Source: Oscillospiraceae bacterium
GTDB taxonomy: Bacteria; Bacillota; Clostridia; Oscillospirales; Oscillospiraceae
Direction of reading: 5' to 3'
DNA: 12,073 nucleotides
Assembly: GCA_017405545.1 (NCBI GenBank)
Contig: JAFRAF010000148.1
Location: 1 to 12,073 of the forward strand
In this document: positions 1 to 12,073 of the stretch, piece by piece
Layout: each line of letters starts with the position of its first letter
How positions within the stretch are numbered: position 1 is the stretch's first letter
The notes under the pieces: model-generated
Seen by the model: the letters and a program-made list of their open reading frames with translations, nothing else
What the model was told of the DNA's origin: nothing
Databases searched by the model: none
Made by a program: the position numbers and the translations under genes

Positions 1-645
1 GAAATGCCAGTCCACGCCTTTCTGAGTAACATTTCTTGCAACAGCCCACGGCACGAGCAAGCGCTGAAGCGAAGGAAGATCAGGGATTCTGTTGTTCGAA
101 ATACACTGACGGCCAAGAGCGGATAACTCAATCTCTGCGATATTAAGCCAACTCCCGTGCTTTGGTGTGTAATGAATCTCCAAACGTTCGGCATAATCTC
201 GAGCACGTTGCAGCGGAAATGTTGCGTACAGGGATGCAATACTGTAGGTGTTGAGGTTATCCATTATAAGAACAACCTTTTTTGCTGTTGGATACTGCGC
301 AGTCAGCAACCACTCGATCTGCATTGCCCAATCTTGAGCAGTTCTTCTCTCCTGGGCATCAGCATATCTCCATCCGGCCAGAGGTTCAGTAAAGAGAAAA
401 ATGCTCGCTGTACCGTTGCGGATATACTGGTAATCCTCGTATTGGACGCCATTCTTTTTGGAGCGGAATCCCTTGCGGAAGTCGACAAAGAATTGGACAG
501 GCTTTTCATCCATGCATACAACGGGGTATTCTTCGTCATATGGCCGGCTGTATACCTCTAGAACATCCTCCATTGCGGCCACAAATGCAGCACTGTGTTC
601 CGGCGGAATGCACCAGCATTTCTTCAGGTTAGGCTTAATTTCGTT
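1..645 (-). CDS. IS630 transposase, DDE catalytic part (orfB, -1 frame, cut by window edge)
   Basis: This frame is open from the A7 run to base 1 (215 codons) and encodes the RNase H-like DDE domain. It begins with the family-typical Lys-Lys-Cys-Trp-Cys-Ile-Pro-Pro-Glu segment. It contains the first catalytic Asp in VVCMDEKP (near base 510), the second in VVLIMDNLN (near 260), and the third acidic residue in WLNIAEIEL (near 140). The last visible residues, VDWHF, are normally followed by only about 15 more, so almost all of the protein is here. It has no start codon of its own in a sensible place. It should be expressed as a fusion with the upstream half through -1 slippage at 644-650. The remaining possibility is a broken copy or a homopolymer error. 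Confidence 0.85.
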
Positions 646-1085
646 TTTTTAAGAATGGTAGAGATTGTGACGTGCGATATGGAGTCTATATACCCAAGTT
701 CAACTGTTCTCTCCGCAAGCAGCCGTAGCGTCCACTTTGAATAACCCTCCGGCGGCTGTCCGCAAGCAAGCGCAATGACGTGCGCCTCCACCTCTCCGGT
801 AACCTTTGCAGGAACAGGCGGCGTTTCGCGTTTCTTCCTATTAATTGTGGCTTCAAGCCCTTTTTCACAATAAGAAGTTCGGACCGTCTGCACTGTAGTG
901 GGTGTGGTATGGTATGCAGTTGCAATCTCAGACACAGTCATGTATTTGTCGCTTCGTTTGTCTGAGGCAAGCAAAATGTTCGCCCGAAGGATGGTACGGG
1001 CCGGACTGTTTCCCTTTTGCACTATATCCAAAAGCTCTGCTTTATCCTGGTCACTGAGTTCAATCACATATTTGTATGACGGCAT
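624..1085 (-). CDS. IS630 transposase, N-terminal DNA-binding part (orfA)
   Basis: Encodes the helix-turn-helix half of an IS630-family transposase (153 aa from the chosen start). A homeodomain/winged-helix-like DNA-binding region covers most of it: one helix set with the Ala-Arg-Thr-Ile-Leu-Arg-Ala signature typical of the family, then a second set ending in the Ile-Leu-Lys-Lys linker. An upstream ATG at 1106 exists, but the ATG at 1085 is preceded by an AGGGGG Shine-Dalgarno-like stretch at proper spacing, so I take 1085. The frame stops at 624, shortly after a run of seven A on the coding strand (644-650). There the -1 frame carries on with the family's usual continuation, so orfA is probably the front of a single frameshifted protein. 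Confidence 0.85.
   Translation of the reverse strand: MPSYKYVIELSDQDKAELLDIVQKGNSPARTILRANILLASDKRSDKYMTVSEIATAYHTTPTTVQTVRTSYCEKGLEATINRKKRETPPVPAKVTGEVEAHVIALACGQPPEGYSKWTLRLLAERTVELGYIDSISHVTISTILKKTKLSLT
644..650 (-). other. Probable -1 frameshift site (A7) in the IS630 transposase
   Basis: Seven consecutive A on the coding strand lie exactly where the N-terminal frame must change to the -1 frame to reach the catalytic domain. Reading Lys-Lys, slipping back one base and continuing with AAC gives an uninterrupted protein matching the IS630 family across the joint. A-run slippage is known for several IS630 members; that it happens here is inferred. Confidence 0.65.
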
Positions 1086-1114
1086 ACAATAACCCCCTAT
1101 AACCATCTGAGGTT

Positions 1115-1143
1115 ATTATAGCACATCGTTTTGGTTTATACAA
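1115..1143 (-). promoter_or_regulatory. Sigma-70-type promoter of the IS630 transposase
   Basis: On the minus strand, TTGTAT (1138-1143) is separated by 17 bp from a perfect TATAAT (1115-1120), about 30 bp upstream of the chosen transposase start. The -10 box is consensus and the -35 box keeps only the TTG. It lies at or just inside the expected end of the element. Confidence 0.6.
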
Positions 1144-1246
1144 GTTTTAGATTTAACATAATACTAGTTTTCCGTGCCCATGTTCGCATTTACCCCGGCT
1201 CATATCCGCAAAGAGGCGCGATGATATACCATCAAACTGAGCTATG

Positions 1247-1693
1247 TTACTTAAGCGTCATGGCAAGCTCTATCTCGTCTTCGTCTTCATTTCCGGTCGC
1301 GGAAAAGCCCCTGTTCTCATATAGTTTTCTTGCAGTGGAAGTGTCTTTGTTGCAGGTTAAGGCAACTCTGTCCGAATCGCCGAAGGGCTTTGTCTTAATA
1401 TATTCTATGACCAGGTCAAGGGCTTCGCTTCCGTACCCGCGACCCTGTTCCTCTTTGTCTATCATCATGTGCCAGATGTCATATTCCGGGATATCATAGT
1501 CATATATCACCATGACATACCCGACCATTTTTCCCGCCGCATATATTCCGAAGGGCTGACACTGGCCTCTGTAGACATACGCCTGCGCAAGGCTCCGTAT
1601 CGGGTGTGAGACGTAAATCTCCTGTCCCGGCGCCAGCTTGAGATTAAATGCGTCAATAAAGTTTTCCTCTGTGATTGCATTAAGTTCTGCCAT
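1247..1693 (-). CDS. GNAT N-acetyltransferase, polyamine (diamine) acetyltransferase-like
   Basis: A 148-aa single-domain GNAT acetyltransferase that would transfer acetyl from acetyl-CoA to an amine. The acetyl-CoA pyrophosphate-binding motif A is seen as QGRGYG at residues 83-88. It follows the strand WHMMID and precedes the helix SEALDLVIEYI; a late NKDTSTARKLYENRGF segment is the usual GNAT C-terminal helix and loop. The N-terminal SLAQAYVY and PFGIYAAGKMVGYVM stretches resemble the BltD/spermine-spermidine acetyltransferase group, so a polyamine substrate is a reasonable guess only. I chose the ATG at 1693 because GGAGGA sits just upstream; an earlier in-frame ATG at 1705 overlaps that ribosome binding site. 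It is separated from the HEAT gene by about 190 bp of structured DNA, and followed by the insertion sequence. Confidence 0.85.
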   Translation of the reverse strand: MAELNAITEENFIDAFNLKLAPGQEIYVSHPIRSLAQAYVYRGQCQPFGIYAAGKMVGYVMVIYDYDIPEYDIWHMMIDKEEQGRGYGSEALDLVIEYIKTKPFGDSDRVALTCNKDTSTARKLYENRGFSATGNEDEDEIELAMTLK

Positions 1694-1749
1694 TGGTTCC
1701 TCCATATAAAGTAAAAGCTCTTTTTGCTGTAATCAGCCCGCATATAATT

Positions 1750-1828
1750 GCGGTCTGGGCAAAAGGCCACCGCAAAGCGGAGCTGATAGGCACGGCTTCT
1801 CCCAGGCCTTTCCGTTCCCATGCTCCGC
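1750..1828 (-). other. Inverted-repeat-rich spacer upstream of the GNAT gene
   Basis: No convincing gene lies between the HEAT-repeat gene and the GNAT gene. The spacer holds GCGGAGC (1777-1783) facing GCTCCGC (1822-1828), with a nested ACGG/CCGT pair in between. It also holds a small CCGC-AAA-GCGG hairpin (1770-1780) and GCGGT/ACCGC arms (1750-1754 and 1769-1773). The arms overlap, so alternative folds are possible. It could be an RNA leader structure or a decayed recombination site. I see no T-run that would make it a clear terminator and no match to a riboswitch I know. Confidence 0.4.
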
Positions 1829-1883
1829 TTTCTTAGTATCACTGCCGGAGGCCCCGTTGAGAGAGCAGGTATCGAAGGCCGGC

Positions 1884-2510
1884 TCATTTGGAACCGGAAT
1901 ATGCTTCCCGCGGTACTGTCGCCCTGATCGCAGCCTGACAGTGGATTCTTACGACTTGGTTAGCATCGCTTTCTGATATCTGCCGCAGCAGCTCCGCAAA
2001 AGGCCTGACGAACTCCGGCCTGCGTTTGCCGAGAACACGGAAGATTTCCGGCGCTTCCATTCTCACCTTGTCGTCCGCATCGTGCAGGAGCTTTTCAAAT
2101 ACCGGCATATGATCCCCGTAAATGCCTGGAGTGTTCGCGGCGATGTTTTCCGATGCCCAGATAAAACTGAGTCTGACCTTGGCCTCCTCATCAGCGGCAA
2201 AGCGGAACAGATCCGCCCAGTACGGCTCGATCACAGGATAGCAGCCTCGCCCGATCCTGCCGAGAGCATTAACCGCGCGCTCCCGCAAAAGCGGCGCCGG
2301 GCTGTCAAGGAAGGAGGCTATGACCGGAACCGCGTCCTGCACCGACTGCGGATACGCAAGGCCCATCTCGCCGAGCAGCCAGAGAGCCTTTGCCTGTATT
2401 TTTACGGATTCGTGGGAAAGAAGGGACGAGACACAGGGAATGCTTTCTTTCCACTTATCCCTGTTATCTGTCAGTTTTCCAAGCTCTTTATATAATTCCG
2501 AATCGGTCAA
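1884..2510 (-). CDS. HEAT-repeat protein
   Basis: A 208-aa, wholly alpha-helical protein built from HEAT-type repeats. Repeat-like helices are visible as ESVKIQAKALWLLGEMG, PLLRERAVNALGRIG, EEAKVRLSFIWASENIA, DKVRMEAPEIFRVLG and NQVVRIHCQAAIRA, spaced by roughly 35-40 residues. Such proteins usually act as binding scaffolds and I see no catalytic motif, so its partner is unknown. The start is TTG at 2510, preceded by AGGAG eight bases upstream; no ATG fits the frame. It begins 31 bp after the stop of the unknown protein at 2542-3006 and is probably cotranscribed with it. Confidence 0.8.
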   Translation of the reverse strand: MTDSELYKELGKLTDNRDKWKESIPCVSSLLSHESVKIQAKALWLLGEMGLAYPQSVQDAVPVIASFLDSPAPLLRERAVNALGRIGRGCYPVIEPYWADLFRFAADEEAKVRLSFIWASENIAANTPGIYGDHMPVFEKLLHDADDKVRMEAPEIFRVLGKRRPEFVRPFAELLRQISESDANQVVRIHCQAAIRATVPREAYSGSK

Positions 2511-2541
2511 TTTGTTATCTCCTCAAACGGGTATTTGTCTG

Positions 2542-3006
2542 TCAAGCCCCCGCTGTTTCAGCGGCCGGGTCTTTGACCTGCAGAAGTAATCTGCGATATG
2601 TATGGGTGTTTTTCCCGTTCTCATAGTTGCTGTCTTCGACGAATACCTCTTTTCCGCAGATCAGATCCACCTCCCACCCCGTGTTTTCCGGGCAGCCAAA
2701 AAATCTGATTATTTTGGGATCCGCTTTGATCCTGCATTTTATGCCGGTGATCCGTCTGTTTTCATCCATGATGAAGGACACGAATTCTGCGAACTCATAA
2801 CGTTCCCGGTCTCCCGGAAACAGCTTCACCGTCGTACCGACAACTGCCGGAACGAGACAGTGGGAATTCTTATGGACGGGCTCTACCGACGGTATGGGAG
2901 AGGTGATGTCATATCCGAAATCACAGCAAAGACAATACTCTTTCTCTGCCTCTTCCTTTTTTTCTTTCTTGTCCTTGTAAAAAAGCCCGCTGAATGGATT
3001 CTTTAT
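2542..3006 (-). CDS. Hypothetical protein with a missing or ATA start codon
   Basis: The frame is open from a TGA at 3025 down to its stop at 2542, and I do not recognise the family. It contains a charged Lys/Glu-rich stretch near the N-terminus (KDKKEKKEEAEKE), then CLCCDFGYD, then a mixed strand-rich region with KLFPGDRERYEFAEFVSFIMD and HTYRRLLLQVKD near the end. A GAGGAG ribosome binding site lies nine bases before an ATA codon at 3004-3006 followed by AAG AAT CCA TTC; no ATG, GTG or TTG occurs at that place. The first in-frame GTG (2829) has no ribosome binding site and would drop about 59 residues of otherwise uninterrupted frame. So this is either a gene that lost its start codon by an ATG-to-ATA change (154 aa) or one using a rare start. 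It follows an rlmD-tail repeat and precedes the HEAT gene. Confidence 0.55.
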   Translation of the reverse strand: MKNPFSGLFYKDKKEKKEEAEKEYCLCCDFGYDITSPIPSVEPVHKNSHCLVPAVVGTTVKLFPGDRERYEFAEFVSFIMDENRRITGIKCRIKADPKIIRFFGCPENTGWEVDLICGKEVFVEDSNYENGKNTHTYRRLLLQVKDPAAETAGA

Positions 3007-3082
3007 CGGTTTTATCTCCTCGTAATTCTGAATTCAGCAAGGGAGTATATTTCCAGCCATCTTTGTCGAGTTGCCTTAATGA

Positions 3083-3094
3083 TGAGTATACTCA
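3083..3094. promoter_or_regulatory. 12-bp perfect palindrome upstream of the hypothetical gene
   Basis: TGAGTATACTCA is a perfect palindrome about 80 bp upstream of the probable start at 3006. It also ends the reading frame of the rlmD-tail-like repeat next to it. It could be an operator, but with only one copy this is weak. Confidence 0.25.
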
Positions 3095-3150
3095 AGACCC
3101 ATTCTCACAGATGACTGTTTGATAAACCGACTGATCGGCAGCCTCTGCCC

Positions 3151-3291
3151 GGCTCGAGTGATCAGCGCGACGACCTCCGCATGCATTGGGACAACGGCGT
3201 GAATAAAATGATACATATTTGCGCTGCCCACACGACCCTGCTCGTCAGGAATATGCCGTTGACCGGTCGAGTCAGGGCACTCGGATCGATG
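3151..3291 (-). repeat. rlmD-tail-like repeat, copy 5 (long form)
   Basis: On the minus strand this block reads as a frame ending in P-M-H-A-E-V-V-A-L-I-T-R-A, which matches the last residues of RlmD (W-H-V-E-S-V-V-K-L-T-R-A). It is colinear without gaps with 3694-3834: I count 118 of 141 identical bases, and 64 of 65 in 3227-3291. The frame upstream of the tail (HIPDEQGRVGS...FIHA) is also shared. It fills most of the 311-bp gap between the DUF6440 gene and the hypothetical gene, in which I see no gene. It lies upstream of the genes it probably belongs with. Confidence 0.75.
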
Positions 3292-3317
3292 TTATGGTTT
3301 CGGCAAACGGGAATTTG

Positions 3318-3494
3318 CTACTTGACATATCTTGGGTCAAGCAACGGTTTTCCATCTTTATCGACCAACACCGTGAGGCCGCCTATATTGGTCCAATGAG
3401 CTAATAAATACTGGACACCAGTCTCTTTGTCAACAATGATACGAGCCCCTTGCATTAAACCTTTCTTTTCAATAAACTCAAACCGCTTATCCAT
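3318..3494 (-). CDS. DUF6440 family small protein
   Basis: A 58-aa protein with the features of DUF6440: an N-terminal KRFEFIEKKG, then RIIVDKETGVQYLL and GGLTVLVDKDGKPLLD, i.e. small beta-strand units with the VDKETGV and DKDGKP turns. The role of this family is unknown to me; members are short, soluble and common in gut Firmicutes. The start at 3494 is chosen because GGAGGT lies seven bases upstream; an earlier in-frame ATG at 3509 overlaps that site. It stands alone between two rlmD-tail repeats, so it looks like a single-gene cassette. Confidence 0.75.
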   Translation of the reverse strand: MDKRFEFIEKKGLMQGARIIVDKETGVQYLLAHWTNIGGLTVLVDKDGKPLLDPRYVK

Positions 3495-3690
3495 TGCTTT
3501 TACCTCCATAAAGGTCTGACTTGTCAGTTTTCTACATCAACAAATTGCGCCGCTGAATGATCCCACTTATACTAATCAGGTGATATTACTTTGATTTCGC
3601 CCATTGTATCGCATTTATATGTTTAAGCTTCCATAATATACCGTACTACTTCAAAAAACTGTAGCTCTACATATGACCTATAGACTCAAC
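3495..3690 (-). promoter_or_regulatory. Leader region of the DUF6440 gene, no strong promoter seen
   Basis: AT-rich spacer between repeat copy 4 and the DUF6440 start. It holds a ribosome binding site (GGAGGT), a CTGAC-TT-GTCAG palindrome (3516-3527) just upstream of it, and a TACAAT that could be a -10 box but has no matching -35 box. Together with the repeat at 3691-3834 it makes a 348-bp stretch without a gene. Confidence 0.3.
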
Positions 3691-3834
3691 TCAGGCTCGA
3701 GTGATCAATGTGACTGCATTCACATGCCTCGGGTGGGTGGCGTGAATAAAAAGGTGTATTTTTACGCTTCCCACACGACCCTGCTCATCAGGAATATGCC
3801 GTTGACCGGTCGAGTCAGGGCACTCGGATCGATG
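3691..3834 (-). repeat. rlmD-tail-like repeat, copy 4 (long form)
   Basis: On the minus strand a frame starting over the end of the DUF7662-like gene runs through HIPDEQGRVGS...FIHA to P-R-H-V-N-A-V-T-L-I-T-R-A and a TGA at 3691-3693. The end matches the RlmD C-terminus, with the general-base Glu replaced by Asn. It shares TGATCACTCGAGCC exactly with copy 5 and is colinear with it over 141 bp (about 84% identity by my count). The half farther from the tail is almost identical; the tail half has diverged. Confidence 0.75.
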
Positions 3835-3842
3835 CCGCTGTC

Positions 3843-4046
3843 TCACTCTTTTTCAAAGATCACCGTCTTGTTTTTCAACGAAATCTTCCCGACCCTGAAA
3901 CCGTAATTCAGTAATTCTTTCTTGTAATTCAAGAATGAATGATCCATCGGTAAGCCGGCAATCATCTCTATCTCGTCGAACGTCAGCATAAAACTGTCCG
4001 TGCCGTTATCCCTGATCCACATCCACAGTGGCTCATATTTACTCAT
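3843..4046 (-). CDS. Small DUF7662-like protein
   Basis: A 67-aa protein beginning MSKYEPLWMWIRDNG, with LTFDEIEMIAGLPMDHSFLNYKKEL and a C-terminal GKISLKNKTVIFEKE strand pair. The KYEPLW...L-F-EIE-I-G pattern is that of a widespread family of small Firmicute proteins close to DUF7662, with no function known to me. The start has a clear GGGAGA ribosome binding site eight bases upstream. It begins 16 bp after the stop of the DUF3795 gene, so it is the last gene of a four-gene run, and ends just before repeat copy 4. Confidence 0.75.
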   Translation of the reverse strand: MSKYEPLWMWIRDNGTDSFMLTFDEIEMIAGLPMDHSFLNYKKELLNYGFRVGKISLKNKTVIFEKE

Positions 4047-4062
4047 CTTTTATTTCTCCCGA

Positions 4063-4584
4063 TTATTGTTTCTTTTTTCGAAGTTTTAAGTCTACGCTGC
4101 TCCTTTTCTTCAGACGCTTCTCCATCTGCTTTGCTCTATCTTTTACAGGGATCTCCGGATCACTGTCCTCGAATAGCGTCCGAAGATCCTCCAGCGGCAG
4201 CAGATTCACGGCAAGACAGAACAGCGCCTTTTTTCGGCCATCGTTATATTCCGCAAGCAGCCGGTCAAGGATCCGACGCTTCTCCGCTTGTTCTGCGTTA
4301 TATGCTTCCTCACCGATTCTCTGTATTTTCTCAAGATCGGCTTTCTGATTCCTGTGCGTAATGAAAGAATCAAACTCATCAATATTTGCATACTTCTCAC
4401 ACGGGTACTCCGGGCATCGGAAGCAATACTCCGGCTTGCCATGCTCCAGACTGCATCTGGTTATCGGGCAGGGCTGATTCCCGAATCCACAGCCGCCGCA
4501 ATGCCCGGAAAGATGCATCGAACACAGCTTGCAGTTCAGCCCGCAAAGTGAAAAATATGGATTGTTTCTTGTAAAGCTTTTCAT
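4063..4584 (-). CDS. DUF3795-type cysteine-rich protein
   Basis: A 173-aa protein whose first 65 residues carry ten Cys (14, 18, 21, 29, 32, 39, 44, 54, 57, 62), in C-x3-C-x2-C and C-x2-C arrangements that suggest bound zinc or an Fe-S centre. The CGLNCKLCSMHLSGHCGGCG and CFRCPEYPCEKY pattern is that of DUF3795. The rest is helical, charged and coiled-coil-like, ending in a basic KKRSSVDLKLRKKKQ tail. Function is unknown; the family is often near small methyltransferases and acetyltransferases. AAGGA lies nine bases upstream of the ATG. It starts 29 bp after the methyltransferase stop and is probably in the same transcript. Confidence 0.8.
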   Translation of the reverse strand: MKSFTRNNPYFSLCGLNCKLCSMHLSGHCGGCGFGNQPCPITRCSLEHGKPEYCFRCPEYPCEKYANIDEFDSFITHRNQKADLEKIQRIGEEAYNAEQAEKRRILDRLLAEYNDGRKKALFCLAVNLLPLEDLRTLFEDSDPEIPVKDRAKQMEKRLKKRSSVDLKLRKKKQ

Positions 4585-4613
4585 GTTATTACATCCTTAT
4601 AAGCCGGATTCTG

Positions 4614-5369
4614 TCACTTTTTTGCTATCACAATCGGTTGATAAAAGTCTGTTTCTTCCGGGAACTTCCAAACCACATTACTGCATCCGTTTGCCCGGAG
4701 CAGATTCGTAAGTTCCTCCCTGCGAGTCGCCCTGTATTCACACACAAACTTGCTGATCTGCAGGTCATCCTCATCGTCGATGATGTACTGCGTCAGCCGA
4801 TAGTTATCGCCGCTCCAGACCCAGGTTTGGAAGGAAACGCGCTGTCCCTTGTTCGTTCTATGGATGTATGGCGGAGAATACGGCGGCTTTTCGGCCAGAA
4901 GGCTGTCATAATCCCGGATGCTGGCCACAAAGATGCCGCCTCGCCTGATTCGACCAACGATGCTCATGACAGCCGTTTCCAGTGCCTCACCTGTAAGCAT
5001 GTGCGGCAGAGCGTTGTCCATAGCGATTACAATATCAAACTGCTTTGAAAAGACATCAGATAAAGCGCAGAAATCCGCATGCTCAAAGCGAATATTTACA
5101 CCGTTCTTCTCAGCGCGATCAGCCGCCTCCGCAAGCTCCCCGTCGCTGATGTCCGATGCGGTCACATTATATCCGAGCGCAGCCAGCCCGATTGCCTGCG
5201 TTCCGATTCCGCATGCGCAGTCGAGTATCTGCGCTGTTCTGTCAAATCCGTTATCAGCAAAGATCCTGTTCAGAATAACAGCCTGCTCCCGTGTCGCTGC
5301 CTGCCAGTCAAGAAACAGTTTGTCATATTGAGTTGACAGATTATCATAAAAGGTCTGCGTAATACTCAT
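4614..5369 (-). CDS. Class I SAM-dependent methyltransferase
   Basis: A 251-aa Rossmann-fold methyltransferase using S-adenosylmethionine. Motif I is ILDCACGIGTQ (residues 48-58), the acidic end of strand 2 is SDIS (Asp73), an HADF segment gives Asp99, and FDIVIAMDNALPHM (111-124) is motif IV with the substrate-side loop. The C-terminal beta-rich part (YRLTQYIIDDEDD, CEYRATRREELTNLL) resembles the glycine/sarcosine N-methyltransferase and small-molecule methyltransferase group, so a small substrate is likely; which one cannot be seen. The ribosome binding site (GAGAG) is weak. It follows the flavodoxin gene by 32 bp and is followed by the DUF3795 gene at 29 bp, so these look like an operon. 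Confidence 0.88.
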   Translation of the reverse strand: MSITQTFYDNLSTQYDKLFLDWQAATREQAVILNRIFADNGFDRTAQILDCACGIGTQAIGLAALGYNVTASDISDGELAEAADRAEKNGVNIRFEHADFCALSDVFSKQFDIVIAMDNALPHMLTGEALETAVMSIVGRIRRGGIFVASIRDYDSLLAEKPPYSPPYIHRTNKGQRVSFQTWVWSGDNYRLTQYIIDDEDDLQISKFVCEYRATRREELTNLLRANGCSNVVWKFPEETDFYQPIVIAKK

Positions 5370-5401
5370 GCGCTTTTCTCTCTCACAAATCCCGATTTAT
5401 A

Positions 5402-5842
5402 TTACAATTCCCTATAAAACCTGACCGCTCCGGCAACCTCCTTCTCCGTAGGATGCCCCTTGGCGATGCCGCCGATCTTTCCGAAGGGTCCGAAGGTGTC
5501 GAAGCCGCAGCAGTGGTATTTGCCGATCTCGCGGCAGCGCTTTTTGTTCACGACCGCACGAATCCCTTTCAGAAAGCCTCCGACCGGCGCGCCGTGGGTA
5601 TAGATATAGAACACATCTTTGCTTTCCGGCAGATGCGCGTCGGCAAATGATATGATTTGCTTTGCAAACGAGCTGAAATAGATGCCGGAGGCAAGCCCGA
5701 TCCGGTCAAAGGCCGACAGATCGGCGTCCGGCTGCTGAGTCACGTCGATCAGCGTTACGGAGCTGTCCGCCTCCGCGATGGCGTCCAGCAGTTTCTTCGT
5801 GTTGCCGTGATGCCTGGAATAATAGACGATAGCAGTTTTCAT
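5402..5842 (-). CDS. Flavodoxin family protein
   Basis: A 146-aa flavodoxin-fold protein expected to bind FMN and carry electrons. The phosphate-binding loop is YYSRHHGNTKK at residues 7-17, right after the first strand. ASGIYFSSFAKQI (51-63) and YIYTHGAP (79-86) are the second and third FMN-contact regions, and the C-terminal GPFGKIGGIAKGHPTEKE is typical of the short flavodoxin-like group. The frame is open further upstream to 5986, but the ATG at 5842 is preceded by GGGAAGGGG and begins exactly at the conserved first strand. The upstream extension encodes only rlmD-tail repeat sequence in another frame. Its redox partner is unknown. Confidence 0.88.
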   Translation of the reverse strand: MKTAIVYYSRHHGNTKKLLDAIAEADSSVTLIDVTQQPDADLSAFDRIGLASGIYFSSFAKQIISFADAHLPESKDVFYIYTHGAPVGGFLKGIRAVVNKKRCREIGKYHCCGFDTFGPFGKIGGIAKGHPTEKEVAGAVRFYREL

Positions 5843-5864
5843 ATCGCATCCCCTTCCCTCATAC

Positions 5865-5940
5865 TTCGCATCATCAATACGACTGATTCCACATGCCTTG
5901 AGACGACGACTTGGATATCGTCGGTAAGCGGAAATATATC
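5865..5940 (-). repeat. rlmD-tail-like repeat, copy 3
   Basis: Between the CDP-alcohol transferase and the flavodoxin, a minus-strand frame encodes C-P-D-I-F-P, eleven extra residues, then R-H-V-E-S-V-V-L-M-M-R and a stop shortly after. DIFP...HVESVV matches DMFP...HVESVV of the rlmD gene at 7473, and HVESVV is identical. The insert between the two blocks keeps the frame (24 bp longer than in rlmD). There is no start codon or ribosome binding site of its own that I trust. Confidence 0.75.
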
Positions 5941-5966
5941 CGGGCAAAGCGCTCTGACTATGCAAG

Positions 5967-6476
5967 TCAACGATTGGCCGGATCATTATTCCCCGTTCCT
6001 GTTCTGATCAGGTGTCCTTCCTGTATCGCTGCGAATGTCGCTGCTGCGCTGACAAACACCCCACTATATTTCAAATCAATAAACGTTAATGTCATCGGAA
6101 GCACAAAAAGCAGTATTCCCGTCACCTTATTCATTACTGTATGCAGGGTAACCATTTGCTTTCGCATTACATATCCGGAAATCAAGTTGATCGCCTTGAT
6201 CACGGCAATCACGATGATCCAGATGATAAGCCAGGCCGGTACGTGAATGACCGGAATGAGTTTTATCAGACACACAACGACCAATACAAAATCAGCCGCT
6301 GTATCAAGCTTCGATCCAAACTCGCTGGCAGTGCCCGTTTTCCGCGCAACAGCCCCATCTGCCATATCGCTGACCCCGGCAGTGATATACAAGACATAGA
6401 ACGCCGGTGAAAACACAGGGCAGAACAGTAAAACTATACCGCAAACGATCCGGATTCCGGTGATGATGTTTGCCAT
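5967..6476 (-). CDS. CDP-alcohol phosphatidyltransferase family protein
   Basis: A 169-aa integral membrane enzyme of the family that joins a CDP-activated lipid to an alcohol. The complete catalytic signature D-x2-D-G-x2-A-R-x8-G-x3-D-x3-D is present: Asp37, Asp40, Gly41, Ala44, Arg45, Gly54, Asp58, Asp62. About five to six hydrophobic segments follow or precede it (near 7-20, 24-34, 63-75, 81-99, 117-133, 138-150). It resembles PgsA-like enzymes but is somewhat short, and the acceptor alcohol is not evident. Its ATG starts one base after the stop of the VOC gene (TAATATG), so it is probably translated by coupling. It ends just before repeat copy 3. Confidence 0.88.
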   Translation of the reverse strand: MANIITGIRIVCGIVLLFCPVFSPAFYVLYITAGVSDMADGAVARKTGTASEFGSKLDTAADFVLVVVCLIKLIPVIHVPAWLIIWIIVIAVIKAINLISGYVMRKQMVTLHTVMNKVTGILLFVLPMTLTFIDLKYSGVFVSAAATFAAIQEGHLIRTGTGNNDPANR

Positions 6477-6477
6477 A

Positions 6478-6840
6478 TTACACAGGTGTCCCCACTTCGA
6501 TCAGATTCCCGTCCGGATCATAGAAACGTATGACCTTCTGTCCCCAACTGTGGGTCATGAGCCGGTTGACGTATTTCACTTCCGGATAATAGCTCTCCAG
6601 CCTTTCCACAAATCCTTCTATGTCACGTTCCTCAAAATAGATTTCACATGAGTTATTCTCCGGAATAATCTTTTTACCGAGGAACTCTTTCCAGTATTTT
6701 TCTTCCTGTAGCACGAGCCCTTCCGTCAGGATCATATTACCGTCATTATCGAGGACAAGCTCAAGGCCGAACAAGTCATGATAAAACCGCCTGGATCTTT
6801 CGATATCTTTAACAACGATCAATACATTCTTCAGCTTCAT
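6478..6840 (-). CDS. VOC (glyoxalase/bleomycin-resistance) family protein
   Basis: A 120-aa protein with the paired beta-alpha-beta-beta-beta units of the vicinal oxygen chelate superfamily. The first unit has VLIVVKDIERSRRFYHDLFGLEL (residues 6-28); the second ends in VIRFYDPDGNLIEVG (103-117), with the usual metal-side Glu115 and a possible one at Glu66. The usual His near the start of the first strand is not present (KLKNVLIVV), so metal binding and the reaction are uncertain. A GGGAGG site lies ten bases upstream of the ATG. It is the first gene after repeat copy 2 and is coupled to the CDP-alcohol transferase gene. Confidence 0.87.
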   Translation of the reverse strand: MKLKNVLIVVKDIERSRRFYHDLFGLELVLDNDGNMILTEGLVLQEEKYWKEFLGKKIIPENNSCEIYFEERDIEGFVERLESYYPEVKYVNRLMTHSWGQKVIRFYDPDGNLIEVGTPV

Positions 6841-6882
6841 CTGAGATTATCCTCCCTGACAATAGTTCTATAGTTTCGGCAC

Positions 6883-7013
6883 GGCTCGAGACATCGAGAC
6901 TACGACCTCACAATGGCACGAGGAAAGGAAATAGATAGTCATCCTTCGTGCCTGTTTGCAAAACGCGGTCAGGAACATATCCACGAAGACACGTACGTAG
7001 AAACATGTCGACA
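6883..7013 (-). repeat. rlmD-tail-like repeat, copy 2 (two Val-Asp-Met-Phe blocks)
   Basis: In the 188-bp gap between the GNAT and VOC genes, a minus-strand frame reads V-D-M-F, 19 other residues, H-C-E-V-V-V-S-M-S-R-A, and a TAG soon after. This matches V-D-M-F-P-R-S-W-H-V-E-S-V-V-K-L-T-R-A at the end of RlmD. At DNA level aggaacatatccac (6971-6984) and agaaacatgtcgac (7000-7013) correspond to gggaacatgtccac (7525-7538) in rlmD, with 12 and 11 of 14 bases matching. So the upstream block is present twice, 29 bp apart and in different frames. The CTCGAGCC end is shared with copies 4 and 5. Confidence 0.75.
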
Positions 7014-7028
7014 AGTTGAACTTGTCCT

Positions 7029-7433
7029 TCAGCAATTCAGCGCCTTGACCATAACACGGCTGTTCAGCACTTCGTACCCGAATTTTCGATACAAATCATG
7101 GGCGTCTCTTGTAATCAGAATCCCTCGAAGACCGTTATATTCCGGTAGGGATTCTATATAAGACACCAGCGCAGCCCCCAGCCCCTTATGCTGATAGTCC
7201 GTATCAATAATAACGTCACACAGATAATAGGTTGTGGCGTAGTCGCTGATGACTCTTGCAAAACCAACAAGCTTTTTGCCGTCATCAAGCCGTACACCAT
7301 AACACGATGAATTCCGCATAGACTTTTCGATTTGCTCAGCTGAGCGTTTATCTGCCCAATATGTCATCCTGAGCAGCCGGATGACTTCATCGATGTTCAT
7401 TTTATCCGATCCATCAACAATACTGAAACTCAT
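7029..7433 (-). CDS. GNAT N-acetyltransferase
   Basis: A 134-aa single-domain GNAT acetyltransferase. Motif A is QHKGLG at residues 81-86, after the strand YYLCDVIID and before the helix AALVSYIES; GILITRDAHDLYRKFGYEV (104-122) is the usual C-terminal strand, helix and Phe-Gly-Tyr loop. LVGFARVISD is the central strand. The acyl acceptor cannot be told from sequence. I take the ATG at 7433 with GGGGTGA just upstream; a GTG at 7442 is possible. It starts only 39 bp after rlmD and ends 15 bp before repeat copy 2, so it is the first cassette gene and probably shares the rlmD transcript. Confidence 0.87.
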   Translation of the reverse strand: MSFSIVDGSDKMNIDEVIRLLRMTYWADKRSAEQIEKSMRNSSCYGVRLDDGKKLVGFARVISDYATTYYLCDVIIDTDYQHKGLGAALVSYIESLPEYNGLRGILITRDAHDLYRKFGYEVLNSRVMVKALNC

Positions 7434-7472
7434 ACCGATCACCCCATCTATTCAGTAACAGTAATTCTGTAT

Positions 7473-8837
7473 TCACAACCCGGCTCGGGTGAGTTTCACA
7501 ACTGATTCTACATGCCAGCTTCGCGGGAACATGTCCACGGCCTCGGCTTTTACGGCGGTATAGCCCAGCCGGGAGAAGATCTTCAGGTCCCGGGCAAGGG
7601 TGGCGGGGTCGCATGAGACATAAACCACCCTTTGGGGCCATATATCCGCGATTATGCCGGGCACGTCGGGGGCCAGACCCTTCCTCGGGGGGTCCACCAC
7701 GACCACGTCGATCTTTTCACCGGACAGGCGCAGGCGCTCGGCGGCGGCTCCCGCATCGGCGAGGACGAATTCAGCGTTGTCTATACCGTTGGATCGGGCG
7801 TTTTCCGCCGCGTCTGATACGGCGGACTCCACCACCTCGGCGCCGATGGCGCGGCGGCAGTGCCTTGCCATGCACAGGGTGATGGTGCCGGTGCCACAGT
7901 ACAGATCCAGCACCGTGTCCCCGGTGCCGAGGGCAGCGTACTCCAGCGCCTTGTTGTAAAGCAGCTCCGCCTGCCGGGGATTCACCTGGAAAAAGGAGGC
8001 GGGGGAGAGCTTGAAGCGCAGTCCGCACAGCTCGTCCTCAATGGCGTCGGCACCCCATAAGGTGACGAACTCACCGGCGAGGACTGTGTTGCCGGGCCTG
8101 TTGTTTATGTTAAGCACTATGCCGGCGGTTTCCGGGCAGCCGTCCAGTATGAGTTCTATAAGCCTGTCCTTTTTCGGTAGCTTGTCATCGGTGCAGACCA
8201 GCGTGACCTGTAGCGTACCATCCGCCCGGGAGGAGCGGCAGAACACATGGCGGACGAGTCCGCTGTGGGTCTTTTCATCGTAGGGCTTTGCCTTGGATTG
8301 TTCCATCCAGCGCTTTACGGCCTTGAGCGCCCTGTCGGCGGCGGGCTGCTGAATCAAGCATCTGTCCACAGGGCAGATGTCATGGCTGCGTTCCCGGTAA
8401 AAGCCGCTTACGGGCCCGTTCTTGTTCCTGCCTATGGCGTATATGGCCTTATTTCTGTAATTATATATGCTGTCTGCGCCTGTTATCTTCTCAACCTGCA
8501 GTTCAAGCCCGCCGATGCGCTGTATATCAGACTGCACCTTGTCCAGCTTGAAGCTGAGCTCCTCTGAATAGTCCATGTGCATCAGGGAACAGCCGCCGCA
8601 TTTGCTGAACACGGGACAGGCGGGGCTGAGCCTGTGGGGGGAGGGCTCGATCAGCCGCTCAACCTTGGCCCACATGAGCTTGTCGGTGACCTTGAGTATG
8701 CGTATGTCGCACACCTCGCCCCTTATTGCTCCCTTTACAAAAACTGCCCGGCCGTCAATGCGGGCAACTCCGTGCCCCTGGGAGGTGTAGCCCTCTATAG
8801 CTGCGCGGTATATGCTGTTTTTAGCCGGCTGTGCCAT
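7473..8837 (-). CDS. rlmD: 23S rRNA (uracil-C5)-methyltransferase, RlmD/RlmCD type
   Basis: A 454-aa enzyme that methylates uracil C5 in 23S rRNA (U1939 in E. coli numbering; the Bacillus RlmCD also modifies U747). A TRAM domain spans about residues 5-63. Cys74, Cys80, Cys83 and Cys155 (C-x5-C-x2-C...C) would hold the [4Fe-4S] cluster. FFQVN (282-286), DLYCGTGT (311-318), VVDPPRKG (380-387) and VYVSCDPATLARDL (nucleophile Cys409) are the catalytic core. The C-terminal VDMFPRSWHVESVV supplies the general base, Glu444. The ATG at 8837 is chosen over upstream frame because AGGAG lies seven bases ahead and homology starts there. A strong promoter precedes it. Its last codons recur at the boundaries of downstream gene groups. 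Confidence 0.95.
   Translation of the reverse strand: MAQPAKNSIYRAAIEGYTSQGHGVARIDGRAVFVKGAIRGEVCDIRILKVTDKLMWAKVERLIEPSPHRLSPACPVFSKCGGCSLMHMDYSEELSFKLDKVQSDIQRIGGLELQVEKITGADSIYNYRNKAIYAIGRNKNGPVSGFYRERSHDICPVDRCLIQQPAADRALKAVKRWMEQSKAKPYDEKTHSGLVRHVFCRSSRADGTLQVTLVCTDDKLPKKDRLIELILDGCPETAGIVLNINNRPGNTVLAGEFVTLWGADAIEDELCGLRFKLSPASFFQVNPRQAELLYNKALEYAALGTGDTVLDLYCGTGTITLCMARHCRRAIGAEVVESAVSDAAENARSNGIDNAEFVLADAGAAAERLRLSGEKIDVVVVDPPRKGLAPDVPGIIADIWPQRVVYVSCDPATLARDLKIFSRLGYTAVKAEAVDMFPRSWHVESVVKLTRAGL
7482..7538 (-). repeat. rlmD 3' end, reference copy 1 of the tail repeat
   Basis: This is the genuine C-terminal coding end of rlmD (V-D-M-F-P-R-S-W-H-V-E-S-V-V-K-L-T-R-A), which the repeats at 6883-7013, 5865-5940, 3691-3834 and 3151-3291 resemble. 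It is the likely recombination site of the array. Confidence 0.7.
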
Positions 8838-8877
8838 GGTCGGTCTCCTGTTTTTTAAGTATTGTTTTCTGTTTGAC

Positions 8878-8906
8878 ATTATAGCCTGTTTAGCCGCTGT
8901 TTTCAA
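8878..8906 (-). promoter_or_regulatory. Strong sigma-70-type promoter of rlmD
   Basis: TTGAAA (8901-8906) and a perfect TATAAT (8878-8883) are separated by 17 bp on the minus strand, about 40 bp upstream of the rlmD start and just after the cls terminator. It is the best promoter in the left two thirds of the window and could also serve the genes downstream of rlmD, since I see no terminator after rlmD. Confidence 0.8.
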
Positions 8907-8936
8907 CTCGCATTGCACGTATGTGCCGAGATGCAG

Positions 8937-8972
8937 GAGAGAAAACGTCCCCGAACACGTTTGTCCGGGGAC
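8937..8972 (-). terminator. Rho-independent terminator of cls
   Basis: On the minus strand GTCCCCG (8966-8972) pairs with CGGGGAC (8947-8953). A further ACA/TGT pairing follows inside after one mismatch, and GTTTTCTCTC comes after the hairpin. It begins 14 bp after the cls stop and separates cls from the rlmD promoter. Confidence 0.8.
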
Positions 8973-8985
8973 TGGTTGAGCATAC

Positions 8986-10551
8986 TCACATCAGCGGTGA
9001 GATGACCCTCAGGCATCGGCCGGCGAGCTTGCGGAGGACAGGGTCGTTCCTCAGCAGGTCCCGGTTGACGCGCACGCACTTTTTGAGGGTGTCCTGTATG
9101 TCCTTCTCCACGTTGGCGATGACCGGAGCCTCATGCATGTATATGGCGCACTCAAAGTGGTGGTATAGACTGCGGTAATCGAAATTGATAGTACCCACGA
9201 CCGCCCTTGTATCGTCGCTGACCATGACCTTTGAGTGGACAAAGCCGGGGCTGTACTCGTAGATTTTGACCCCTCTGTCCAGGAGATTGCGATAATAGGT
9301 GTGGGCCACGGCGAAAGCGCTCTGCTTATCCGGCTTGTGGGGCAGTATAAGCACCACGTCCACACCCCGCTCGGCCGCGAAGGTGAGGGCCGTAACCAAC
9401 TCGTTGTCCACGATGAAATAGGGGGTCATGATATGCACATAGCGCTTTGCCTGATTGATGATGTCCATATAGACCAGCTCGCCCACGTGCCGCCTGTCAA
9501 GGGGACTGTCAGCGTAGGGAATGACATAGCCGGGGGTCTCGGCTTTTATTCCCGATGTGACGTCCAGATAGCTTGTGTAATCCTCCGCCTTGTAATCGGG
9601 GCTGCTGACATTCCACATCTGCAGGAACATGAGCGTCATGCTTTTGACCGCATCGCCCCGCAGCATGATTGCGTTGTCCTTCCAGTGCCCGTGAAGGACC
9701 TTGCGGTTTATATACTCGTCCGCCAGATTGATCCCGCCGGTGAAACCGACCTTGCCGTCGATAACCATTACCTTGCGGTGGTCGCGGTTGTTGTAGTGGG
9801 TGGAGACAAAGGGCCGAAGCGGCGAGAACATTTTACAGGCGATGCCCAGCTTTTCCAGCTTTTGGGGGTAGTCGTAGGGGAGAAGCGCGATGGCGCATGT
9901 GCCGTCATACATGACTCTGACCTCAACTCCCTGCTGGGCCTTTTCGGCCAGGACCTCCAGGACCCGGCCCCACATATAGCCCTCGTCCACTATGAAGAAT
10001 TCCAGGAAAATGAACTCCTTCGCCTGTCGGAGCTGCCATATCATAGACTCCATGGCGGTCTCGCCCGAGGGGTAGTAGCGCATGTCTGTGTTCCGGAATG
10101 CGGGGAATCCGCCGCTTCTCAGATATATGGCGAGATTTCGCATCCCCTCGGGGAGTTCTTCGGCTTTAGCCTCCTCCGGGAGGTGGGAAAGGGACTCGGT
10201 GAATTGGAGCACCTCGTTGCATTTGTCTATCATCATCCGGTGCCCCAGCTCTGACTTGATGTACAGGTACAGCAGCAGCCCGAACAGGGGGAGGACCATA
10301 ATGAGAAGTATCCATGTTATTTTGACCGTCGGGTTGTCGTTGTTGGCCACAATACGCAGTACGACTATCACCGCAAAGAGGATATTGGCGCCCCAGAAGT
10401 AGTTTGAGTGGTCGCCCAGCCACTGGACGAAATAGAACAGTATGCCTATCTGCAGCAGAAGAAGGAGCATAATTATGCCCGTTCGTCCGAATATTATCTT
10501 GAGTATGCCGCGCTTGCCTTTTTCAAGAAGCAATATCTTTTCGCTGTCCAA
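8986..10551 (-). CDS. cls: Cardiolipin synthase (phospholipase D family)
   Basis: A 521-aa membrane enzyme that condenses phosphatidylglycerol molecules to cardiolipin. Three hydrophobic segments near residues 26-46, 51-70 and 76-98 anchor it. Two phospholipase-D catalytic motifs H-x-K-x4-D follow: His258/Lys260/Asp265 in HRKVMVID, with GFTGGINLADEY after it, and His439/Lys441/Asp446 in HSKVMVSD, with GTINFDYRS after it. Length and order are typical of bacterial Cls. The start is TTG at 10551, nine bases after a full GGAGGTGA; an ATG at 10558 is out of frame and too close to that site. It has its own promoter and terminator, so it is a single-gene unit. Confidence 0.94.
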   Translation of the reverse strand: MDSEKILLLEKGKRGILKIIFGRTGIIMLLLLLQIGILFYFVQWLGDHSNYFWGANILFAVIVVLRIVANNDNPTVKITWILLIMVLPLFGLLLYLYIKSELGHRMMIDKCNEVLQFTESLSHLPEEAKAEELPEGMRNLAIYLRSGGFPAFRNTDMRYYPSGETAMESMIWQLRQAKEFIFLEFFIVDEGYMWGRVLEVLAEKAQQGVEVRVMYDGTCAIALLPYDYPQKLEKLGIACKMFSPLRPFVSTHYNNRDHRKVMVIDGKVGFTGGINLADEYINRKVLHGHWKDNAIMLRGDAVKSMTLMFLQMWNVSSPDYKAEDYTSYLDVTSGIKAETPGYVIPYADSPLDRRHVGELVYMDIINQAKRYVHIMTPYFIVDNELVTALTFAAERGVDVVLILPHKPDKQSAFAVAHTYYRNLLDRGVKIYEYSPGFVHSKVMVSDDTRAVVGTINFDYRSLYHHFECAIYMHEAPVIANVEKDIQDTLKKCVRVNRDLLRNDPVLRKLAGRCLRVISPLM

Positions 10552-10621
10552 AAAACATAGTCACCTCCCTCATGCAGACTTGCGGCGGGCCATGCAGCTT
10601 GCCGCCTACTATAAGGATCAC

Positions 10622-10656
10622 GTTATAATCATAAAAGATATTTAACTGATTATAAC
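10622..10656. promoter_or_regulatory. 9-bp inverted repeat overlapping the cls promoter
   Basis: GTTATAATC (10622-10630) and GATTATAAC (10648-10656) are perfect inverted copies 17 bp apart. The upstream arm (in minus orientation) contains the cls -10 box. This could be an operator, or two -10-like boxes facing each other. Confidence 0.4.
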
Positions 10657-10677
10657 ATATTTCGCTTATGGGAGCAA
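10649..10677 (-). promoter_or_regulatory. Promoter of cls
   Basis: TTGCTC (10672-10677) and a perfect TATAAT (10649-10654) are 17 bp apart on the minus strand, roughly 95 bp before the TTG start. The leader between contains two similar CGGCAAGCTGCATG / CGCAAGTCTGCATG stretches (about 10570-10605) of unknown meaning. Confidence 0.65.
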
Positions 10678-10716
10678 GCGATCGGTGATTCCGGACATGT
10701 CATTATGGATAAACTG

Positions 10717-10742
10717 AGGGCCGACGAAGCATCGCCGGCCCT
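10717..10742 (-). terminator. Hairpin downstream of the SLH peptidase gene, probable terminator
   Basis: AGGGCCG (10717-10723) pairs with CGGCCCT (10736-10742), and CGA/TCG pairs inside after one mismatch around a four-base loop. On the minus strand it is followed by CAGTTTATCC, a poor T-tract. It lies about 80 bp after the stop of the peptidase gene and before the cls promoter, which fits a terminator. Confidence 0.55.
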
Positions 10743-10823
10743 GAAATATCTTTTATATGGCGCCGTCCCCTCTGCTTGAACAGGTAATGCCCGCTGTGAT
10801 GCGAGAGGATTACGCACGCTTTT

Positions 10824-12073
10824 TCAGCTCAAATCCATGGAGGAGTATCTCATGATAAGTGTGGCGAGCTGGGCTCTTGTCACCTCGCCGCCGGGGCTGA
10901 TGGCGGTGTCGCTGGTGCCCTTGATGAGGCCCACATCAACCGCCCACTGTACGGCGTCAAGTGCCCAGTCGGAGATGTCCCCGGCGTCCTCGAAAGCCGA
11001 CAGGTCGGCTCTGTGCTCATCCGCGCTGCCATTGGAAAAACGGTAGAGGATGACAGCCAGCATCTCTCTGGTTATGCCGCTTTCGGGGCTGAAGCTTGTT
11101 TCGGAGGTGCCCTTGACCACGTCGTTTTCCCAGGCCCACAGCAGGGCGTTCAAATATGCCGCATCGGCGGGCACGTCCGTAAAGGGGACGGACTCCGCAA
11201 CGGGGTCGGGGGACTTGGCGCAGCGCCACATGGTGTCCACCAGCTCGGCCCGGGTGGCCGTCTCGTTGGGTCGGAAACGACCCGCCTGAGTGTCCATGAG
11301 CTTGTTCTTCATGCAGAAGCTCACGCCCTCCAGATACCAGGGCGCGTCGGGCATATGACTGTTGCCGTCATAGCCGAGCAGTACCCAGGGCAGCTCGACT
11401 CCGCTGAGGCTCTGCATCCAGGTGTTGCCGTTGGCCCGCTTCACATCCAGCGTATTTATCAGCGTGGTCCTTACCCTCTGGCGTTTGCCGTCCTGCCAGG
11501 GGTTCATTGCGCTGCTGACGGTGCTGTATACATAGTATTTGTCGTTGCATTTGCCCAGATACAACATCTGATGGCCGGGGAACTGGAGCAGAGTGCCCAG
11601 GGGCAGCTTATCCAGAACGGCCTCCTTGGCCTCCACGGGCCAGTCGGCGATGCTGAGCGTGTCTATGGGCATAAGCCACTGCCAATTGGTGTTTCGGGGC
11701 AGGTCGAGGCCGAAGCACAGGAAGATATTGCGGTTGAAGCTTGTGCAGTCCTCGTTGTACAGCATGGCGCCCCAGCCATAGGCGTCACCGAGAGCGCCGA
11801 AGGCCACCTTGGCGATGTTGGCCTTTGTAAGGGGCAGGTAGCTCTCGCTGAGCTTTTCACGGGCGTTGAGCATTGCGGGATGCTTGCTGTAGCTGCCGTC
11901 CTCATTGCGCACGGGGAGATAGACGGCGTAGTTATGTACAGGCAGGCGGTTGATCACCAGCGTGCCCGGCTCCATCTCATCCATACGCTCTAAAACGGTG
12001 CCCATGGTGATGAGGCGGCGGGAGGTCTCGGGCGAGCTGATGGAGTAGTCGGTGTACATCTTGTCGCCGTAGA
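10824..12073 (-). CDS. NlpC/P60-type (C40) cell-wall peptidase with SLH domains, 5' end outside window
   Basis: The frame is open to the right window edge and the first ATG (12059) has no ribosome binding site, so the N-terminus is missing. Counting from that ATG, residues about 25-60 look like an SH3b-type module (PGTLVINRLPVHNYAVYLP). Residues 80-180 are an NlpC/P60 domain: GDAYGWGAMLYNEDCTSFNR with nucleophile Cys105, CFGLDLPRNTNWQ, and FPGHQMLYLG with His163. Three SLH repeats follow at about 242-282, 292-342 and 355-408 (e.g. FTDVPADAAYLNALLWAWEN, then a TREMLAVILYR helix). It would be secreted, held to the wall by the SLH repeats, and cleave peptidoglycan stem peptides. A signal peptide would lie outside the window. 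Hairpin 10717-10742 follows. Confidence 0.88.
   Translation of the reverse strand, partial: YGDKMYTDYSISSPETSRRLITMGTVLERMDEMEPGTLVINRLPVHNYAVYLPVRNEDGSYSKHPAMLNAREKLSESYLPLTKANIAKVAFGALGDAYGWGAMLYNEDCTSFNRNIFLCFGLDLPRNTNWQWLMPIDTLSIADWPVEAKEAVLDKLPLGTLLQFPGHQMLYLGKCNDKYYVYSTVSSAMNPWQDGKRQRVRTTLINTLDVKRANGNTWMQSLSGVELPWVLLGYDGNSHMPDAPWYLEGVSFCMKNKLMDTQAGRFRPNETATRAELVDTMWRCAKSPDPVAESVPFTDVPADAAYLNALLWAWENDVVKGTSETSFSPESGITREMLAVILYRFSNGSADEHRADLSAFEDAGDISDWALDAVQWAVDVGLIKGTSDTAISPGGEVTRAQLATLIMRYSSMDLS

Follow-up and report, generated by a model that had tools for sequence, protein, structure and literature searches.

Mobile gene cassettes behind rlmD in an Oscillospiraceae genome: a probable integron-like array

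In integrons, cassettes that all point the same way follow a primary site that does not move; every cassette ends (3') in a conserved recombination site and starts (5') with a little of the core. The core of their attC sites is G/TT, and orphan arrays without an integrase (clusters of attC sites lacking integron integrases, CALIN) are known as well. This integron-type capture of single genes relies on tyrosine recombinases and is found chiefly outside gut Clostridia. A core of 2 bp is the mark of serine recombinases, and in the staphylococcal cassette chromosomes (SCC/SCCmec) the Ccr serine recombinases act at the 3' end of rlmH, an rRNA methyltransferase gene, where tandem, composite, large islands carrying ccr are formed. 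Passages of two reports describe integrative and conjugative elements (ICEs) of streptococci in which a single serine integrase targets rumA, with repeats of 2-21 bp, attR inside the integrase gene and an exchange that alters the reading frame of both proteins (PMC4701971), and the element CTn5 of C. difficile, which sits in rumA (PMC4320837). Here we analyse a stretch of 12,073 nucleotides from an Oscillospiraceae bacterium (assembly GCA_017405545.1, contig JAFRAF010000148.1, positions 1 to 12,073 of the forward strand; hereafter the window), in which the genes downstream of rlmD (rumA) are likely to form an array of mobile cassettes anchored at the 3' end of that gene, with a large serine recombinase as the probable enzyme, supplied in trans.

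The original prediction, made from the letters of the window alone, held that four intergenic segments behind rlmD repeat the end of this gene in the same orientation. We built a position-specific scoring matrix (PSSM) from 29 RlmD C-termini, taken from 40 relatives' loci with the window sequences excluded, and scanned the window in six frames, with 20 mononucleotide shuffles as a control. Five matches of at least 13 bits were obtained, all on the minus strand: rlmD itself at 7514 and exactly the four predicted places, at 6915, 5895, 3726 and 3183, with 20.3, 27.6, 13.8 and 15.0 bits, respectively; a sixth match, at 6290, had only 7.3 bits. The window lies far above the shuffles, which averaged 0.0 matches at the 13-bit level; at 15 bits they averaged 0.05, versus four in the window. 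The tail residues were also read correctly (HCEVVVSMSRA, HVESVVLMMRS, HVNAVTLITRA and HAEVVALITRA), and VDMF/DIF remnants of the upstream Asp-(Met/Ile)-Phe were found in two of the copies. For the two distal segments (3691-3834 and 3151-3291) the description as copies of the rlmD end applies to the last ~35-50 nt; the rest is conserved DNA that does not come from rlmD and is common to other species. These two are members of a single conserved site family, here called class A, and the left halves of the two proximal copies (c1 and c2) are unlike it. The features of the array are listed below (asterisks mark stop codons; L numbers denote loci and G numbers genomes).

7473..8918, minus strand: rlmD (rumA), 23S rRNA U1939 methyltransferase (open reading frame (ORF); NCBIfam TIGR00479 rumA, 415.7 bits, cut-off 183.55)
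7473..7514, minus strand: present RlmD tail, HVESVVKLTRAGL* (PSSM)
6909..7508, minus strand: cassette 1, 599 bp from GA to GA, with a GNAT acetyltransferase gene at 7029-7442 (Pfam PF00583)
6883..7013, minus strand: site c1, with a left half like ..TTTCCTCGTGCCATGTGGA of L099/L149 and the tail HCEVVVSMSRAVPKL*
5889..6909, minus strand: cassette 2, 1020 bp, with genes for a VOC/glyoxalase protein (6478-6840) and a CDP-alcohol phosphatidyltransferase (5967-6476) (Pfam)
5865..5940, minus strand: site c2, tail HVESVVLMMRS, short ACGACG..CGTCGT inverted repeat (by eye)
3720..5889, minus strand: cassette 3, ~2.2 kb, with genes for a flavodoxin, an S-adenosylmethionine (SAM) methyltransferase and a DUF3795 protein, and a 67-aa ORF (Pfam)
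3701..3844, minus strand: class A site c3, decayed, core GA changed to AA, tail HVNAVTLITRA (alignment A1; blastn to many class A sites)
3177..3720, minus strand: cassette 4, 543 bp, with a DUF6440 protein gene at 3318-3509 (PSSM, Pfam)
3147..3319, minus strand: class A site c4, tail HAEVVALITRAGQRLP... (pattern, alignment A1, blastn)
1884..3176, minus strand: probable further cassette DNA, with the ORF region 2542-3030 and a HEAT-repeat protein gene at 1884-2510

The class A site covers roughly 90-150 nt, forms an inverted repeat and is joined to an in-frame RlmD tail; its layout is GGTCAACGGCATATTCCTGACGCCGAGGGTCGTG..AGCGT..TTTTTATTCACGCTATTGTCCCAAGG, followed by CAYGTNGA and the tail. In a family sample of 150 genomes, searched with up to three mismatches, the pattern gave 12 matches in 8 genomes including that of the window, and the reversed pattern, used as a control, gave 0. 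A collection of 84,980 species, searched with the exact degenerate pattern, yielded 76 matching stretches, of which 75 were usable; these hold the 79 class A sites counted here, in 70 genomes by record names. The system is widespread and not private to the window genome. Record titles of the carriers name Clostridia, Clostridiales, Oscillospiraceae, Ruminococcaceae, Lachnospiraceae and others, and in two cases Erysipelotrichaceae or Solobacterium; many records are of ruminant-gut origin, and many come from sheep, goat, buffalo, yak or deer samples. L160 (Bryobacterales) belongs to another phylum and has unrelated flanks, and was judged a chance match. Viral contigs contained no exact match to the class A pattern, and Rfam gave no match on window positions 3000-7700 at E up to 1. 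Downstream of rlmD in the relatives' loci, further tail-like matches of at least 12 bits occurred in 7 of 40 (13 in all, some probably by chance); the DNA of 11 of these matches was compared, and several have the conserved class A sequence to the left of the tail in common. Alignment A1 comprises 46 of the 79 class A sites and the two of the window; near-duplicates, sites near contig ends, L112, L127, L133 and L160 were left out.

The class A tail is coding sequence. At least 36 nt to the right were available for 77 of the 79 sites; 73 of them show the strict motif HVExVxxL in frame, and L147 and L162 depart from it only by a Val in the last place, which brings the count of in-frame tails to 75 of 77, with one broken copy each in L133 and L138. 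A looser form of the motif occurs 0 times and once, respectively, in the other two frames of the 77 sites. The tails vary as RlmD C-termini do between species (HVESVVLMSRAGA*, HVECVTLMTKK*, HVETVCLLSRR* etc.), and in all of the first six tail codons variation is greatest at the third base. A long tail of ~30 residues, HVETVC[CF]LY.QKKD(F/Y/C)IS.., recurs in L097, L110, L113, L116, L125, L133 and L137. Some tails run in frame into longer ORFs, of 126 aa in L155 (tail at 5820-) and 43 aa in L154 (tail at 6053-), so that insertion of such a unit at rlmD would add extra sequence to RlmD. To the left of the tail, class A seems to contain two diverged copies of a sequence like the left core (AACGGCATATTCCTGACG and AACGGCATTTTTATTCACG), and in L045 (2760-2925) four tandem copies resembling the rlmD left core (GTYGAYWTGTTYCC..ACGTG) were seen by eye before one tail.

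For 50 of the 70 carrier genomes we located the class A sites, allowing up to three mismatches, together with the RlmD-family genes at E ≤ 1e-40. Of 73 class A sites, 38 (in 28 genomes) share a contig with an RlmD-family gene, and every one of these 38 lies downstream of that gene, on the same strand, at a distance of 481-13,599 bp. The anchor in some genomes is a shorter RlmD-family paralogue without the N-terminal ~98 residues (L094, L095, L111, L121, L129, L136 and L146).

The DNA between successive tails behaves as discrete units. Among 79 tail-to-tail units, a count in which the repeat records L097, L159 and L164 appear twice and some tail matches are doubtful, 78 are shorter than 4 kb (median 754 bp); the longest ORF of these 78 runs in the orientation of rlmD in 73 and in the opposite one in 4, and one unit has none. 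Class A sites frequently stand right behind the stop codon of unrelated genes (by eye). With the three repeat records removed, ten unit families, comprising 25 of the 72 de-duplicated units, recur in at least two loci with differing neighbours; lengths within seven families are equal to within 2 bp (604 three times; 802 twice; 672, 672, 673, 673; 635/634; 634/635; 576 twice; 867/865) and within three are unequal (654/654/619/659; 1150/1081; 1196/656).

All-against-all alignments (at least 82% identity over at least 150 bp, within set windows around each site) revealed 37 shared stretches that end near the core, 8 that start there and 3 that span it. The ends lie at +2 to +33 from the C of CAYGT in 34 of the 37, with 11 at +8/+9, right after GA (bases 7-8), and two of the eight starts fall exactly at GA. 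When 22 pairs of shared units were aligned on the Glu codon, identity at the unit starts was 0.32 at base -1 and high from GA on, and at the unit ends it was high through GA and fell afterwards. Compared letter by letter, L141 and L158, as well as L115 and L153, have unrelated DNA on the left and the same cassette from GA onwards; the cassette common to L141 and L158 (97.7% identity over 1,098 bp) is preceded by a class A site in the former and by a serine recombinase gene's 3' end in the latter, the switch being exactly at GA. Judged from these alignments, each cassette is a separate unit delimited by a GA dinucleotide in the Glu codon of HVE, the presumed crossover core. The same comparisons show a cassette next to rlmD in one genome and farther along the array in another. 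In L141 the tail VESVVLITRAE* forms the end of RlmD itself, and in L121 it follows a class A site, which indicates that the cassette in first position supplies the C-terminus of RlmD, its tail being, as read from the genomes, RlmD's own. Repeated site-specific insertion at the rlmD 3' end, producing an integron-like stack, had been proposed for the window and is supported by the placement behind RlmD-family genes, the in-frame tails, the re-ordered units and the GA boundary. The accompanying suggestion that the oldest cassette carries the most decayed tail was not supported in general: with the repeat records removed, rank and tail score showed a Spearman coefficient of -0.12 (p = 0.24; 34 arrays, some with chance matches), and the difference between the rlmD tail and the last tail gave p = 0.050 in a Wilcoxon test.

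For the window itself, the crossover dinucleotide in rlmD would lie at 7508-7507, a position transferred from units common to other genomes, and the last codons of rlmD presumably serve as an attachment site of the attI/attB kind. The gene labels proposed earlier agree with Pfam for GNAT, VOC, CDP-alcohol transferase, flavodoxin, methyltransferase, DUF3795, DUF6440 and HEAT; a DUF7662-like label was not confirmed, as neither the 67-aa ORF that had received it nor the frame 2542-3030 has a Pfam match. DNA relatives of cassette 2 were detected in L054/L159, L133, L100 and L082, and those of the distal region lie in array loci too (HEAT in L062/L164; the stretch 2560-3029 in L133). The region of the 67-aa ORF (3849-4046) resembles L042 5745-5942, which is located behind rlmD. 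The GNAT unit had no DNA relative among the loci compared, and the PSSM found no additional tail at 13 bits in 1884..3176. Elsewhere in the window genome, L235 (G000:C374:5924-6109) is 75% identical to the 67-aa ORF region (3861-4046). At the far end of the accessory region lies an IS630-type transposase gene (303-1106, minus strand; match 624-1106), apparently split over two frames and broken.

Which enzyme might act on these sites is suggested by their neighbourhood. Large serine recombinases with PF00239, PF07508 and PF13408 adjoin arrays in two genomes, G136 (L059, a stretch that also encodes a MobA/MobL relaxase) and G173 (L158/L236/L238), and their genes end in an rlmD tail; the gene order is rlmD, a stretch of ~13 kb in G136 and ~9 kb in G173 that ends in the recombinase, and then the cassette. 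When the database candidates with the most words in common with the L059-type enzyme were scored, 3,594 proved homologous at E ≤ 1e-20; the rlmD-tail motif is present in 107 of the best 120, in which the body is nearly constant and the tails diverge around VE. The family sample contains such recombinases in 8 of 150 genomes, with 5 of 9 matches on the rlmD contig; those of G136, G142, G117 and G031 lie downstream of rlmD, on the same strand, 11-57 kb away. In G098 (L037 15530-17242) a serine recombinase gene converges on rlmD and overlaps its end, the final codons of the recombinase gene running antisense to the rlmD tail. A phmmer search with three recombinases against the ORFs of the 75 class A loci (up to 8 kb each) gave matches in L097 and L158 and, in L104, to a small resolvase that is of a different type; the recombinases of L097 and L158 belong to separate elements in front of the cassettes, and the cassettes themselves are without a serine integrase gene. 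The GA boundary, together with the two recombinase-bearing elements directly before arrays, points to large serine recombinases of the rumA type, and such enzymes, working in trans, are the most likely builders of the array. The recombinase, which the original prediction had left unnamed, can in this way be narrowed down to a candidate class other than the integron integrases; what was seen is the neighbourhood and the shared junctions, from which we infer that a rumA-type recombinase acts on class A sites.

In the model proposed here, a cassette begins (5') with a spare RlmD C-terminus, carries a single gene or a few, and closes (3') with a left half-site that is conserved. A free, probably circular cassette would recombine its GA with the GA in rlmD; the insertion would give rlmD a new set of last 8-20 codons, and the old tail and the array would be pushed downstream. 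The enzyme would be a large serine recombinase like those of the ICEs and of the integrative and mobilizable elements (IMEs) that target rumA/rlmD, supplied in trans, and the cassettes would be its non-autonomous passengers. Taken further, such a 'serine integron' might represent a second, independent cassette-capture system in Bacillota, with non-autonomous cassettes, a rumA-type large serine recombinase in trans and captures that each rewrite the C-terminus of an rRNA methyltransferase while its function is kept; this wider reading is tentative, and we give it slightly less than even credence.

Several observations weigh against the cassette reading. Enzymes of the L158 type were found at E ≤ 1e-50 in 2 of 50 carriers, which is no enrichment over the family sample with its 8 of 150, and most of the arrays seen are orphans. 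At E ≤ 1e-5, PF07508 had no match in G065, G090 and G101 despite their sites, these being metagenome-assembled genomes (MAGs) of 65-87% completeness. The left half of class A was not among the recombinase C-termini compared. In L104, 0.7 kb upstream of a class A site, a serine recombinase of 221 aa with PF00239 and a helix-turn-helix domain and without PF07508 (6984-7646, minus strand) makes another enzyme possible. Three of the 37 shared-stretch ends lie 38-74 bases left of CAYGT, 6 of the 8 starts lie 2-43 bases left of it, inside conserved class A DNA, and alignments that ended outside the set windows were not counted; the anchoring on the Glu codon makes the identity of 1.00 at GA partly built in, and the GT at positions -3/-2 belongs to the Val codon. 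Neither an excised circle nor a pair of strains with and without a cassette occurred among the sequences compared. Finally, 35 of the 73 mapped class A sites are on contigs without an RlmD-family gene. Eighteen of them are plus-strand sites, with 10 less than 2 kb from the upstream end of the contig and 8 farther away; because of these 8, class A arrays probably exist at secondary locations as well. L138, L127, L145 and L112 have class A sites but no rlmD in the examined locus and adjoin a common serine hydrolase/GNAT gene group; they are possible secondary locations, and the class A site of L138 stands behind an apparent truA (recognised by sequence).

The presence of full recombinase-bearing elements at the same place in G136 and G173 also fits a different history, in which the units are scars of complete rumA-targeting ICEs or IMEs that lost recombinase and transfer genes and are not mobile themselves. 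The recombinase is missing from 48 of the 50 carriers searched and left halves of several kinds exist, as such a history would have it; however, independent decay would not yield seven of ten recurring families whose lengths agree to within 2 bp although genomes and neighbourhoods differ, and the class A left halves are conserved across species, unlike the 3' ends of the recombinases seen. We consider this explanation unlikely.

The inverted repeat of class A raises a further alternative, in which a tyrosine recombinase acts on a folded single strand of the site, as the integron integrase does on attC. In the inverted repeat 83% of cells are paired, against 34-47% when slid, c1 and c2 carry short inverted repeats of their own (by eye), and the cassette logic is integron-like. 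The covariation is modest, however: shuffles reach 82.5% paired and 4 of 500 reach the covariation score (a count that is not a probability), RNAalifold gave almost no consensus energy on class A, and for this reason a folded-strand mechanism is not claimed. The 2-bp GA boundary also speaks against it. The integron integrase family (TIGR02249) passed its cut-off of 265 bits in none of the 50 carriers and gave sub-threshold matches there as in all 14 control genomes, none of which passed either, a search of incomplete MAGs that had no positive control. For tyrosine recombinases, screening the ORFs of the loci with a crude motif gave one convincing case, L127, and PF00589, searched in 12 genomes, had one match on a site-bearing contig (G036:C13, which is L138); both lie after the last site. 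A folded-strand mechanism is improbable.

Ordinary homologous recombination without a site-specific enzyme could use the ~100-170 bp of similarity that site and tail offer for crossovers. Yet the similarity begins at GA, with base -1 at chance, even where unrelated DNA stands to the left (a recombinase gene, class A or DMF-like sequence), and neither the in-frame tails nor the position behind rlmD would be explained, which makes this a very remote explanation. That the tails, each short (about 11 residues), are chance matches or decayed rlmD duplications is refuted by the shuffles, with approximately none expected, by the recurrence of the site across the collection, by the placement of 38 of 38 sites behind an RlmD-family gene and by tails that travel with their cassette.

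If the cassette reading is true, genes for GNATs, hydrolases, phosphatidyltransferases and proteins of unknown function are shuffled at rlmD in at least 70 gut genomes by another type of recombinase than that of integrons, which would be an overlooked route of gene flow in the gut communities of herbivores. The units could be found by their tails, and the cassette genes of unknown function would form a defined set for study. The problem of repeated insertion into a conserved gene would be solved in that every insert carries a replacement end.

A search of titles, abstract starts and passages, with most subscription journals and bioRxiv outside its scope, gave no description of such arrays of small cassettes at rlmD. 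With integrons and CALIN the array shares small cassettes of one orientation (73 of 78 units) behind a fixed primary site, with the site at the 3' end of the cassette and a piece of the core at the 5' end, and likewise the occurrence of orphan arrays; unlike in integrons, the boundary is GA instead of G/TT, the coding end of rlmD acts as the primary site, and the 5' end of the cassette encodes the C-terminus of RlmD. The array works like an integron but is not one by three tests: no integron integrase passed the cut-off in the 50 carriers (a search that had no positive control), the core is GA, and the primary site is the end of a host gene. It resembles SCC/SCCmec in the serine recombinase, the 3' end of an rRNA methyltransferase gene and the tandem arrangement, but the insertion is in rlmD instead of rlmH, the cassettes are small in contrast to the large ccr islands, and for both array-adjoining recombinases CcrB/CcrC are among the best-scoring NCBIfam models, all below cut-off. 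With the ICEs and IMEs that target rumA, as far as the passages of the two reports describe them (PMC4701971, PMC4320837), it has in common the target at the 3' end of the gene, the very short direct repeat (here GA at the HVE codon), the exchange of 3' ends and a recombinase gene that ends in an rlmD tail. Those elements are large and carry their own integrase and transfer genes, whereas here small units (median 754 bp) are strung together in arrays and use a distinct type of site, and the frame that is altered in the streptococcal ICEs, according to the passages describing them (PMC4701971), is kept in the tails studied here. The locus looks like an integron-like array on a different kind of recombination site, and we rate it as a new form of a known kind of system that comes near to a new kind.

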